64,000 bases of DNA from Yarrowia lipolytica (lineage: Eukaryota; Ascomycota; Dipodascomycetes; Dipodascales): NCBI RefSeq assembly GCF_001761485.1, contig NC_090770.1, forward strand, positions 744,001 to 808,000. The letters run 5' to 3'. The position numbers and the translations under genes are program-made. Shown one piece after another: positions 48,301 to 57,789 of the stretch. The notes below the pieces were generated by a model that saw only the letters and a list, made by a program, of their open reading frames with translations, did not search any database and was not told where the DNA came from. Position 1 is the first letter of the stretch; the number at the start of each line of letters is the position of its first letter.

Positions 48301-49716
48301 TTAAACAATGACACACTTTTCATCGTCCTTGCCCTTTCGTCCGTGCTTTCGTCCGCCCTTTCGTCCGTTCTTGGTGAAGGCATTGTCGGCACCCATGGGT
48401 GTAGGAGCAGGAGCAGAGCTGGGCATGGCGGGGGTGTTGGAGACGTTTCGACGGGCAGCATAGTTTGCGGCATTGTTAGCTGAGGGAGCGGCGGGCAAGG
48501 AGGGGGTGTTGGCCGAGTTCATTGTAGAAGTAGGAGCGGTGGAGTTGGAGGTGGAGGTGTTGAGCGACTGGGTGTTGACTGAGCTGGAGACGCTGGGTTT
48601 TCGCACGTCCTGGGTTGTCTGGTAGCCTCCGGTGTAGGAAGAAGTGGGGGAGACACCGGGGCCAGTTGGGGACGAGGAGAGCATGGGCTGCGGTTGTTGC
48701 TGGAATCGTTTCTGGGGCGCGAACATGAGCACGTTGGGCTCCTCGTCGGCGGCCAACAGTTTGTTGGCGAGATAGGAGTAGATTTTGATCCAGGCGGTTT
48801 CCATTTCCAGGGTGAAGGAGTCTCCGAACCGGTCGGCAAAGGTTTTGATCATGGCTTCTCCTAGCCATCGGTAGTGGATGGGTTCGACGCCGATCATTCG
48901 GTTGTGTCGTTTTCCCACCGACCACAGGAATTCGTCCAACTTTTCAATGTGGTCGAGCGACTTGATGGCGAGTCCAAACACGCCTGCGACCGCCACCGAT
49001 TGTTTTTTGATGGAAGGGAAGATGGACGTGAGCTCGGCGTGGGATGCCATGAGGTTGGTGTAGAACTGTTCGCAGAAGAGCGCCGTGGGTGTTCCGTAGG
49101 CGGCGCTGCTTTCAAGTGTCTCGGGGTCGTTCATGAGCTTTGCCCACAGCTCTTTGGTCAGGTTGATGTCTTCGCGGGTCATGTTGAAGACGACCTCTGC
49201 CTTGGACGGCCGTGCCGCCGAATTTGTGGGGGTCACGGCGCCATTGGTTCTGGTTTCTCTGGCGTCGTTGGAGTTGAGGTGGAACTGCTGGGGTGCCGTG
49301 GACGTTTTGACCGGCTGCTGTGCGTACAGGTGCGGTTTGATTGTGTAGAAGTCTCGCTGGGACTGCGAGTATCCGTCAATGTCGGCCATTTTTTCGTGCT
49401 GGCTGTGGATCGAGTCGTCGCGGACGTGCACACCCATGGTTCTTAAGGGCGAATTTGCAGATTGACTTTGATCGGCTGCAGCAGCCATTCGTCGGGGAAT
49501 CAGTGGCAGGTTGGAAAAGCGGCCGAGAGCGGACGAAACTGACGAGATTGACGACGTTCGGGACGACGGATAGAAAGGTGCAAGCGGCGGAGTTTCCAAC
49601 GGCGGAGTTTCAAACGACAAAGTCCGTCTTGGTGGCGGTGCGGCTAGTGCGGTGTCAGCGTGGTATCTCTCCCCGCTCTCCTTCTCCGTCGTTTCTGCTG
49701 CTTCGTTTTGCTCCAT
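48301..49716 (-). CDS. Single-domain globin with polybasic CaaX tail
   Basis: The 471-residue protein has a globin fold at about 179-325. The haem-pocket residues can be placed: Y219 (B10) in FYTNLM, F233 (CD1) in TSIFPS, Q239 (E7) in KKQSVAVAG, and the proximal H271 (F8) in VGKRHNRMIGVEPIHYRWLG. Tyr-B10 with Gln-E7 is the flavohaemoglobin pattern, but no FAD/NAD reductase domain follows. The first 175 residues and the segment 330-445 are Ser/Thr/Pro/Gln-rich. The C-terminus has three Gly-Arg-Lys units (451-461) and ends KCVIV, a CaaX prenylation box at C468. The nearest yeast architecture I know is S. cerevisiae YNL234W, a haem-binding globin. A membrane-bound oxygen or redox sensor is a plausible inference; the function is unknown. 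Confidence 0.88.
   Translation of the reverse strand: MEQNEAAETTEKESGERYHADTALAAPPPRRTLSFETPPLETPPLAPFYPSSRTSSISSVSSALGRFSNLPLIPRRMAAAADQSQSANSPLRTMGVHVRDDSIHSQHEKMADIDGYSQSQRDFYTIKPHLYAQQPVKTSTAPQQFHLNSNDARETRTNGAVTPTNSAARPSKAEVVFNMTREDINLTKELWAKLMNDPETLESSAAYGTPTALFCEQFYTNLMASHAELTSIFPSIKKQSVAVAGVFGLAIKSLDHIEKLDEFLWSVGKRHNRMIGVEPIHYRWLGEAMIKTFADRFGDSFTLEMETAWIKIYSYLANKLLAADEEPNVLMFAPQKRFQQQPQPMLSSSPTGPGVSPTSSYTGGYQTTQDVRKPSVSSSVNTQSLNTSTSNSTAPTSTMNSANTPSLPAAPSANNAANYAARRNVSNTPAMPSSAPAPTPMGADNAFTKNGRKGGRKHGRKGKDDEKCVIV
48331..48367. repeat. 12-bp repeat coding the polybasic tail of the globin
   Basis: Three copies of a 12-bp unit, GGACGAAAGGGC-like on the coding strand, give the repeated Gly-Arg-Lys-Gly/His tail. 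Confidence 0.85.
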
Positions 49717-53709: not shown

Positions 53710-55175
53710 ATGTCCGCGAGAACCAGATCCATGTCTCCGGGCCGCCCTCTGCGCCAACAACAAAAGAGCCCCTACACCACCCACAGCCAGCAGCTCCAAC
53801 AGCAACACCTGGCGCAGCTCCAGCAGCTGCAACAGCTCAATCAGCGCTTCGGGTCGTCCAACTCGTCCTTCTCGTCGTCATCCTCGCATACCCCGACCCA
53901 ACCGTCGTCGGCAAACTCCACCCACTCGTCCTCCCGCCACTCGGTCTACGGCACCCACAACTACGCTTCCTCCGATGCGAGCTTCAACAACCGGTCCGTG
54001 TCGCAACCAACACTGTCGGAACCCGCCACCCCAACCACAGTGCCAGACAGATACCGGCGCAAGAGCATGGTCAACCTGCCGTCCCACGAACGCAGCCCTT
54101 CGCTGCCCAGTAACACAAACCCCGGCCAAGGTTCTCACGTGACCCCAACTGCCGGTGCTGCTCAAACCTACACCACCCAGCAAGCTCACACCACAAATAA
54201 CCCCAACACCAATAACTCACCGCCTCCCCGACTGTCGTACTCGTCCACAGACTCGTCTGCGCCCTCCACCACCGCCGCGTCCACCTCCACCATCGGCACC
54301 GTGCATTCGTTCCACAAAAAGACCCAAAGCAGGGACTTTGACGGTGAGTATCACAACATGGACCACCATGGCATGCACCATGTTGCAGCTCCACATGGAC
54401 CAACCCTCCACACAACCACACACAGCCGTCCATGCCCTCGTACTCCCACTAACGCAGACCAAGCGCCGTCCCAGCAACCGCCCCAGCATCAGCCCCAGCA
54501 TCAGCCCCCGCCGCAGCCCCGACAACAACCAATGGTGCTGCCGTCGGATGCCCGCCGAAAATCGCTCCTGGCCAAAGACCCGCTGGGCACACTGCAGGAC
54601 CAGCGTGCCTCTGCCATCTCGCTCTCGTCCTATCACACGGTCCAGTCCAACTCCTCGCCTACTCGAAGCATGATTTCCGACGACAGCAGAGAAAGCTCCC
54701 CTGACGTGAGACAAGACAAGGTCCCCCAACCCGACACGACCCATGTTAACGAGCACACCACCAACACAGAAACCACACAGCTCGGCGCTGCTCCTCCACT
54801 TGCCCCACCAGCGTCAACTACCACCTATGAGGATGCTGTGGCCGCTGGAGTTACTGCCGCGACTGCACCTGCCGATGCAGACCAGACGGTCACAGACGCG
54901 CACACAAACACCGTGGATGCCCCCGTTGTTACTCCTGCAGACACAACTTCGCACTCTAACTACGACGTGGTCTCTGCACAGTACGATGCTCCCCCACAGT
55001 TTGATGCTCCGCCGGCCGCTCCTGAAAATAACGCAACATCCTCTTTGGACCCTGCTACCGAAAGAGGACGGTACAGAGCCAAGCACTCCCCTCCTCTGTC
55101 GAGTCCCACAAAGACAGAGGCACCACAGCAACCTCAATACATGACTCAGCAACAGCATGTATCTCAGTTGCAGCA

Positions 55176-55212
<37 letters not shown>

Positions 55213-57789
55213 TATTCCTCACCACCCGTGAGCCAGCCTTCGCATCAGCAGTCGCAGCGCACCATGTCACTCGGCAGCCAGTCTGCATTCCGCGACTTTG
55301 ACCAGCCCTTGTACCAGACCAAGTCAAACATGTCGATTGGTGGCAAGTCTGTCGGCGGCTTCTCCTCGTCCGGGATTAGCACATCCGGCATGAGCACACA
55401 GTCGTCGTTCGGCGGTCTGCGTCACCAAAAGTCGTCAGGCTCGCTACGAGAGAAGTTCAAGAAGGTCTTCTCGTTTGGTCGTACAAAGAGCTCATTGAGC
55501 AGTGCCCCTACTTCAGGTCAGATCAACCTCACTGGCGGCCCCGCCCAGCGATCCGAGCGAACGTCCACTATGACGTCCACGACCTCGGGACGTTCATTCT
55601 CCGAGTTTCTGCGCCGGTCGTCCAAGCCTGACAACTTTGACGACGCCAGGTCCATCGAGAGCAACAAATCGTCGTCGTCGTTTGCGGCCCTCAAGCGCGC
55701 TGGCAAGAATCTTCTGAAGAAGAACAACCCCACCGAGCAGGCTCGAACCCCCAAGTCTTCTTCCCACAGCGCGTACGATGTGCCTACTGCGGGGTCCACT
55801 GGCCGTGCGCCTTCTAATGCTCCCCAAAATGCACCTTCTCGAACGGGTACTCCTTCAGCAGCGCCTTCGCGTGCAGCCACTCCTACCCCCACGCTGGCTT
55901 CTGGTTCTGGCTTTCAGCCTGGCGTTTCGCCTCCCAAGAACACCGCTACAGCTTCTTTGTCGGTTTCTCCTGCGGAGGTTGATCGAGAGACGGCCCAGTG
56001 GAGTGCCGGTTCCAGTCTGGAGGGTGTGCTTGGTGCTGCGGCCGCAGCGGGTGCTACGCAGGCTGCGACAGCTCCTTCATCAGGCTACGGAGTGTCTGGC
56101 AACGCTGTCGTTGCTGAGCCTGCTGTGACGGAGCCTGAATTTGAGGATGCCCATGCTGCATTTGATGACCAGTCTGCTGTTCCTGCAAGCGCTTCCAGCG
56201 ATGCAGCTTCCAATATTGCACCTCCTGCGATTACCACCACGCTGGCTAGCGCCCTTCCTTCCGACGCCTCCAGTCCCACGTCTGTGTCTTCTGTCAATGG
56301 CGGTTCTGCTGGATCCGAGACTGACGCCGACGAGTTTGTGGCTGCCGAAACGGTCTTCCCCAAACACCTTGGTGTTGAAGACATTGACAACATTCGAACC
56401 TCTCTCGACCGAACCAAGTCGCTGGAGCGACGAGGTAGCCGACGACGCAAGGTGACGCCCGACTCGCAGTCACATGCCCATCACGCACCCGAAGAGGCCG
56501 TGCCCAACCCTACAGAGGTACACATCCATCATCCAAAGTCCTCGCTGGGCCGATCCGAAAGTACTTCCAGACCCCGAAGTATTCTCAAGAGCAAGCAGAG
56601 CGATGGATCGATGGTTAGCGTTGATACTGTCACCGGCCAGCGTCTGAGCGATGTGAGTGGCGAACGAGTCAGCGGTGATGTGTCACGTTCATCGGTGGAA
56701 CAGGTGAGCGGTGATGTGTCACGTGACACCATCATTTCGACACGTGGGGGTACGAGCGATATTCTGCCCACACGTGACTCTCTGACTAGTACTGGCCCTG
56801 CACCCATCGACATTGAGATTGCACAGAATTCTGCTTTGGCTGACCCTGAGGCCACCCCCACCGGTCTTGAATCGTTCATGGAGAGTGCCCGACCCTCTAA
56901 CAACGGCCCGACCTCCGAGGCCGGCACAGACGTCGAGTCCATGTTTGCCAACTTCTCGTCGATCTCGTCTGATCTCGATCTGTCGTTTTCCACGCAGCTG
57001 GAGCCGCTTGGCCTGCCTGTGCGCCCTGAGTCGCCTACTCCTTCACAACAGTCGTCTGTTCGCTCCACGGACTCTGCTTCTGTTTCCCGTTTCGCCACCA
57101 AGCTAAAGGACAACCTGTTCAAGCGTAAGGAGTCGAATACCGGCTTCAACCCCGATTTGCATGAGACGATCAGTGAGGACTCAACCGACCAGGACCATCT
57201 GAGCGGTCTGGGTGGCCACCTCAACGACCACGTTCCTCTGGAGGGCTCGCTCGAAACGGCCTCCATCACGTCGACTGAAACTCCTTCTATCACTGAATCG
57301 TTCCGATCCGAGGGCTCTTATTCCGCCCCTGTGCCTCCCCAGATCCCTGGCGGCCAGCGTGGTAACGCGCCTCTGAGACACTTTTCGCCCGGCCCCACCC
57401 CGTCGAACCCCAATTCGCACAATCGGCGGTTTTCGGGGGGTACCAAAACCCCCCAGACTGCTGCTTCACGGCGGTACCACCAGCATGGCCGGTCTGCGAG
57501 CTACAACGATGATGGGTCTCGAGCTAGTGGCTCACCTATCACTGCCCATTACCCTGGCGTCCATGTTCCTTCTCCCGTGAGCCATGTGAGAAAGGGTAAT
57601 GTTTCGTTTTCCAGCCGAATCGTCATCTACGATACGTGGGATTCGGACGATTATGACCGGCGAACGGAGCCGGCCACTTGTAACCGGCTGACCCCGCTGT
57701 TGGCCCAGCAGATCAAGGAGGAGTTAAACAACTTCAAGATGAACATGGACGTTCATCATGAGAGTCGAATCTACACTCACTTTTTCTAA
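53710..57789 (+). CDS. BNI4: BNI4-like bud-neck scaffold with PP1-docking C-terminus
   Basis: The 1359-residue protein is mostly Ser/Thr/Pro/Gln-rich and disordered. It has a Q14 run (488-501), two basic amphipathic patches (about 577 SLREKFKKVFSFGRTKSSL and 660 ALKRAGKNLLKKNN) and an internal VSGDVSR repeat near 985-1010. Only the last 65 residues look folded: KGNVSFSSRIVIYDTWDSDD, then TCNRLTPLLAQQIKEELNNF and the end YTHFF. The VSF valine is residue 1298, which is 62 residues from the end; in S. cerevisiae Bni4 (892 residues) the PP1-binding V831/F833 pair lies at the same distance, from memory. Bni4 links Glc7 and chitin synthase III to septins at the bud neck. The same role is inferred here. 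The N-terminal half shows no recognisable domain. Confidence 0.78.
55171..55212. repeat. CAG/CAA tract coding 14 glutamines
   Basis: Fourteen in-frame Gln codons, with CAA at the third and thirteenth positions only, inside the BNI4-like gene. Confidence 0.95.

Follow-up and report, generated by a model that had tools for sequence, protein, structure and literature searches.

The globin gene described here lies on the minus strand of a 64,000-nucleotide stretch of the Yarrowia lipolytica genome (contig NC_090770.1, positions 744,001–808,000; the window, in what follows) and consists of one open frame of 471 codons plus stop, with an in-frame stop 27 bases 5′ of its ATG and, in a simple pattern scan of the minus-strand ORF at 48301–49716, no match to the donor-like pattern GT[AG]AG[TA]. 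Its C-terminus, GRKGGRKHGRKGKDDEKCVIV-stop, is read directly from the frame as CVIV-stop, as the initial annotation had stated, and the best match among database proteins, P0001 (named Yarrowia lipolytica), differs from the window globin at one residue. The gene and its parts are laid out as follows.

48301..49716, minus strand: whole coding sequence, 471 aa
49441..49716, minus strand: N-terminal extension (residues 1–92), also in the paralogue L002 and missing from the database records P0002–P0007
49306..49389, minus strand: conserved N-terminal motif MADIDGYSQSQRDFYTIKPHLYAQQPVK (residues 110–137), mean pairwise identity 0.94 among eight proteins
48712..49191, minus strand: globin domain (residues 176–335)
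48364..48711, minus strand: low-complexity linker rich in Ser, Thr, Pro and Asn (residues 336–451), less conserved
48328..48372, minus strand: polybasic stretch KNGRKGGRKHGRKGK (residues 449–463)
48301..48315, minus strand: CaaX box CVIV (residues 468–471) and stop codon, with the Cys and the a1 Val invariant in eight of eight proteins

The gene is flanked on one side by a SurE-family protein (PF01975; 43665–44714, minus strand) and on the other by a 1359-aa ORF (53710–57789, plus strand) with no Pfam match at E ≤ 0.001; a class I 3′,5′-cyclic nucleotide phosphodiesterase (PF00233; 13560–15440, plus strand) is encoded about 33 kb away. These neighbours come from a scan of uninterrupted ORFs.

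The central domain passes the Globin (PF00042) profile cut-off with the proximal His F8 present, and within residues 176–335 we could assign Tyr219 to B10, Phe233 to CD1, Gln239 to E7, Val243 to E11, His271 to F8, Tyr282 to G5 and Asp324 to H23, in agreement with the Tyr-B10, Phe-CD1, Gln-E7 and His-F8 first proposed for this protein. From the combination of Tyr-B10, Gln-E7, His-F8 and Tyr-G5 one would expect a pocket that binds O2 and reacts with NO and peroxide. Hell's Gate globin I (3s1i) and yeast flavohaemoglobin (4g1b/4g1v), the closest solved F-type sequences, have the fold in common with the window globin and align with it at Tyr-B10 and Gln-E7; neither, however, is recorded with such flanks or such a tail, and the yeast flavohaemoglobin carries a reductase. 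In the window globin Pfam shows none, as the initial annotation had stated: no family that binds FAD or NAD matches it at E ≤ 1. Because a full-length AlphaFold model, built with eight sequences in the alignment, had a mean pLDDT of 40, its low confidence in the flanks counts as weak evidence for disorder, and a domain-only model was used in its place; the linker (residues 336–451) is probably disordered.

With its globin at residues 176–335 of 471 aa, in a class that ranges from about 410 to 560 aa with unidentified flanks, the protein belongs to the reductase-less central-domain yeast globins (CDFHb, YNL234W type), with which it shares an F-type globin in the middle and long parts of unidentified nature to either side. 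The class is described, on the basis of FUGUE, as keeping part of the reductase (PMC3287990), whereas Pfam shows no such remnant in the window globin. A description of reductase-less yeast globins in S. cerevisiae dates from 1999 (cited in PMC1457004), and a 2006 census lists two central-globin proteins of Y. lipolytica, of 471 aa (globin at 194–333) and 463 aa (186–325), in a class that also holds S. cerevisiae NP_014165, of 426 aa (PMC1457004). Because the census lists them, the two Y. lipolytica proteins, which we match to the window globin and its paralogue by length and not by sequence, were already known; their tail goes unmentioned there. We take NP_014165 to be YNL234W, with which its length fits. 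To our knowledge, yeast globins of the reductase-less kind have no established function. The C-terminus of YNL234W was itself recently frameshifted, gaining 70 residues, the longest such addition in the set studied (PMC4494051).

The available text of neither the 2006 census nor a 2012 fungal census (PMC3287990) mentions a CaaX tail, and neither 'prenyl' nor 'Yarrowia' occurs in the main text of the latter. No prenylated globin is among the literature matches listed, in which few subscription journals are covered, and no paper in the literature searched brings YNL234W and globin together. Of two candidates for a prenylated-globin paper, PMC7876099 was set aside, its 'globin' being a seed storage protein, and PMC9247026 deals with GBP1 and tuberculosis. 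Neither the globin class nor the lipid motif is new in itself, but the two together seem to be undescribed.

A search of the Y. lipolytica genome (20.5 Mb, six contigs) in six frames, introns ignored, placed the Pfam globin profile at E ≤ 1 in the window ORF, in a paralogue, L002, carried by a different contig (463 aa, 75% identical to the window globin and ending GRKQGRKGKDGEKCVLA), in a flavohaemoglobin-like ORF of 374 aa at a separate locus (L003), and in no further place. Protein searches, two of which scored the 7991 and 7998 candidates with the most words in common, returned nine proteins, P0001–P0008 forming a close group and P0009 standing apart; the class members known from Candida, Kluyveromyces and Saccharomyces lie outside the set that they reached. 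Our counts refer to the eight full-length proteins of the close group: the window globin, L002 and P0002–P0007. Four of these are named Yarrowia (both Y. lipolytica copies, P0002 and P0003), and for P0004–P0007 we infer a place in the same clade from their 69–81% identity to the window protein. P0001, which also ends in CVIV, is not counted apart, being a one-residue variant of the window globin; P0008 (274 aa, with no C-terminal part) was dropped before counting; and P0009 serves as a distant comparison outside the counts. Over residues 1–267 P0008 is identical to L002; it then diverges just after His-F8 and stops, perhaps through a frameshift or an assembly fault in its source. Trees did not separate the orthologues reliably: in the full-length tree one grouping alone, that of the two Y. 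lipolytica copies, is supported (96/95), and a globin-only tree gives that pairing no support. Bootstrap values were still unstable in both trees, and the branch to P0009 is very long.

Across this close group the C-terminus is conserved. The Cys at −4 and the Val at a1 occur in all eight proteins; a2 is Ile in six, Leu in one and Val in one, and X is Ala in seven and Val in one, giving CVIA in five proteins and CVIV, CVLA and CVVA in one each. None of these relatives lacks the Cys or extends past it, a check proposed when the tail was first noticed, and the changes at a2 and X are all CaaX-compatible. Residues 455–471 have a mean pairwise identity of 0.88, the highest of the 116 17-residue segments starting at residues 340–455, compared with 0.90 for the globin and 0.60 for linker residues 387–446 (numbered by the window globin): the basic tail and its box are the best conserved stretch C-terminal to the globin domain. 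The tail after the linker reads KNGRKGGRKHGRKGKDDEKCVIV, with an acidic DDE between the basic stretch and Cys468, and the last 24 residues carry a net charge of +6 in every one of the eight. At codon level, comparison of the window globin with its paralogue shows the tail under no stronger constraint than the linker, dN/dS being 0.43–0.52 versus 0.31 (9–26 codons). We had expected a lower ratio in the tail, which offers few sites, and did not find it; support for the tail is therefore that of protein conservation across the close group only.

The end of the window globin has the form of a prenylation substrate, with a Cys at −4, aliphatic a1 and a2 residues, an allowed X (Val is one such residue) and then the stop. 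CVIA, the commonest box of the group, is the a-factor box; it is fully farnesylated on Ydj1p in S. cerevisiae and can be cleaved by Rce1p or Ste24p (PMC5014548), and it is among the top matches of a Ras-based yeast FTase screen, with an enrichment of 10.1 (PMC10320760). CVIV and CVLA do not occur in the main texts of the specificity papers searched, these two among them, nor does CVVA in those where it was sought, so for all three boxes we infer the enzyme preference. Judged by eye, the 11-residue stretch that precedes the Cys, KHGRKGKDDEK, has the hydrophilic and flexible character that the PrePS motif requires (PMC1175975); substrates of GGT1 are richer in lysines (PMC1175975), and Val at X together with lysines before the Cys would also allow geranylgeranylation. 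Farnesyl is the most likely lipid, geranylgeranyl possibly being added too.

The enzymes for these steps appear to be at hand. Y. lipolytica encodes an FTase β subunit (L007, matching a solved FTase β at 1.6e-74), a GGTase-I β (L009, of which L010, just upstream, is probably the first exon), a GGTase-II β (L008) and a PPTA-repeat α subunit with five repeats over the cut-off in one frame; at the level of Pfam families only, it also has one Rce1-like match, two M48 peptidases and a pair of matches to the ICMT family, of which one is strong and the other lies at the cut-off. Trimming and methylation of the box are predicted and would probably take place. A box conserved in eight of eight proteins, the farnesylation precedent of CVIA and the encoded enzyme families together support, as a prediction, the initial annotation's claim of a prenylated, membrane-bound globin: lipidation of the C-terminal Cys is very likely, and steady membrane binding of the protein is likely.

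The one distant relative that we found, P0009, is a protein of 517 aa with 47% identity across a 139-residue part of the globin region; it keeps Tyr-B10, Gln-E7 and His-F8 and has Phe at G5. Its C-terminus has a basic stretch without a CaaX box (SKFANFKNVMKFDKGNVGKRISTIY, the final residues being STIY), and for this reason the box looks like a trait of the Yarrowia clade, perhaps not general to the class.

Other lipid-tethered proteins offer partial parallels. K-Ras4B is a polybasic CaaX protein, and in both K-Ras4B and the window globin a basic stretch is followed by the box; rice calmodulin CaM61 shows the same arrangement on a sensor that is not a GTPase (PMC4536634). The window globin differs from both in its globin cargo and in the DDE that separates its basic stretch from the Cys, and seven of the eight close-group boxes end in Ala, like that of a-factor. 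The proposed K-Ras4B-like layout holds for the polybasic stretch and the CaaX box; the acidic residues between the charge and the Cys make the analogy partial. Among globins, the closest parallels are the N-acylated proteins of animals (fish globin X, GLB-12 and GLB-26), in which a lipid on a terminal extension likewise tethers the globin (PMC3176823, PMC4686822). There the lipid is an N-terminal myristate and/or palmitate, whereas here, in a fungus, it is a predicted C-terminal isoprenoid after a long linker. The C. elegans protein GLB-26 has reportedly been studied as an acylated globin.

The N-terminal part of the window globin holds two further regions. Residues 1–92 show a dN/dS of 0.55 and in-frame length changes between L002 and the window globin; the records P0002–P0007 begin exactly at, or close to, the residues that correspond to Met94 or Met110, and start-codon choice or an extra exon may be the source of the difference. 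Residues 110–137 form a 28-residue motif that lies outside the globin domain and is conserved at least as well as it (0.94 versus 0.90 among the eight proteins); it is a possible docking motif and, on this conservation, would be the best lead to a partner. The first residues of P0009 bear a faint likeness (L-Y-x-Q) to it. Because four of the six orthologue records start with MG (P0002, P0003, P0004 and P0006), we considered dual lipidation by N-myristoyl and prenyl groups. N-myristoylation follows a rule of Ser or Thr at position 6, and none of the four has either; the window ORF starts upstream, as MEQNE, with no Met-Gly myristoylation site at its N-terminus, and dual lipidation is unlikely.

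Taken as a whole, the protein is on balance probably a prenylated, membrane-tethered, reductase-less F-type haem globin, which may serve as an NO or peroxide scavenger or as a redox signaller. The CaaX Cys would be prenylated, and the lipid and the basic tail together would tether the globin to the cytosolic face of a membrane, with about 115 probably disordered residues as a leash between globin and anchor. The haem, to judge from the pocket, would then react with O2, NO or peroxide. With no reductase domain found in the protein, its re-reduction would depend on a membrane-bound reductase, and membrane association may indeed aid the reduction of globins by such enzymes (review, PMC3820574). 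The output would be local, as scavenging of NO or peroxide or as redox signalling at the membrane; that haem chemistry takes place there is a tentative proposal.

The tail itself has other, less probable explanations. By composition about 0.07% of proteins would end in such a box, which for some thousands of genes amounts to a few in each genome, and a box could arise in this way by chance on a fast-evolving tail; its retention in all eight full-length close-group proteins while the linker diverges makes this already disfavoured explanation extremely improbable. The Cys might instead be kept without a prenyl group, as part of a redox-active, metal-binding or protein-binding C-terminus, a reading that suits the paralogue tail's want of extra codon-level constraint and the fact that the lipid on the window globin is a prediction. 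A Cys fixed at −4, an a2 confined to Ile, Leu or Val and an X confined to Val or Ala are nevertheless the pattern expected under prenylation, and the commonest box is that of a-factor; we regard a non-prenylated Cys as improbable. Alternatively, the chief role of a prenylated tail might be to direct the protein to the nucleus or its envelope, with the GRK repeats serving in nuclear localisation or nucleic-acid binding and the lipid lodging in the inner nuclear membrane or ER, as in lamins. By inspection GRKHGRKGK resembles a basic localisation signal, and the basic stretch is conserved together with the box, but a polybasic stretch with a CaaX box is equally a plasma-membrane layout, and inspection revealed no further nuclear feature, so that this role seems rather unlikely.

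A different question is what a tethered globin would do. Rather than scavenging, it could signal, as a sensor of O2, NO or redox state in which the state of the haem alters partner binding by the 28-residue motif. The motif's conservation, no lower than that of the globin and outside it, fits such a role, as does the precedent of C. elegans GLB-12, an acylated, membrane-bound, superoxide-generating redox signaller (PMC4686822); YNL234W, too, is described as having a possible part in glucose signalling or metabolism (PMC4494051). The evidence from the tail, however, is common to this reading and to the one preferred here, and the signalling role has no known partner, output domain or physiology; we hold it to be a reasonable possibility, short of an even chance. 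Within the preferred reading of a prenylated, membrane-tethered haem globin, one may speculate further, and with considerable doubt, that a Ras-like layout has been given to a haem protein: a leashed, prenyl-anchored globin, present in two copies in Y. lipolytica, whose haem state would report O2, NO or peroxide through the conserved motif.

A conserved prenylation box in a group of reductase-less yeast globins points to the membrane as their site of action. If the prediction is true, this would be the first case known to us of a globin anchored by a C-terminal isoprenoid; isoprenoids would join the N-terminal acylations known for membrane globins, suggesting that globins have been tied to membranes separately in animals and in fungi. 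Y. lipolytica needs much oxygen, and overexpressing a bacterial haemoglobin in it improved the yields of protein and erythritol (PMC10797999), which lends its own globins practical interest; in this genetically tractable industrial yeast, Cys468 offers a single-residue handle on the anchor.
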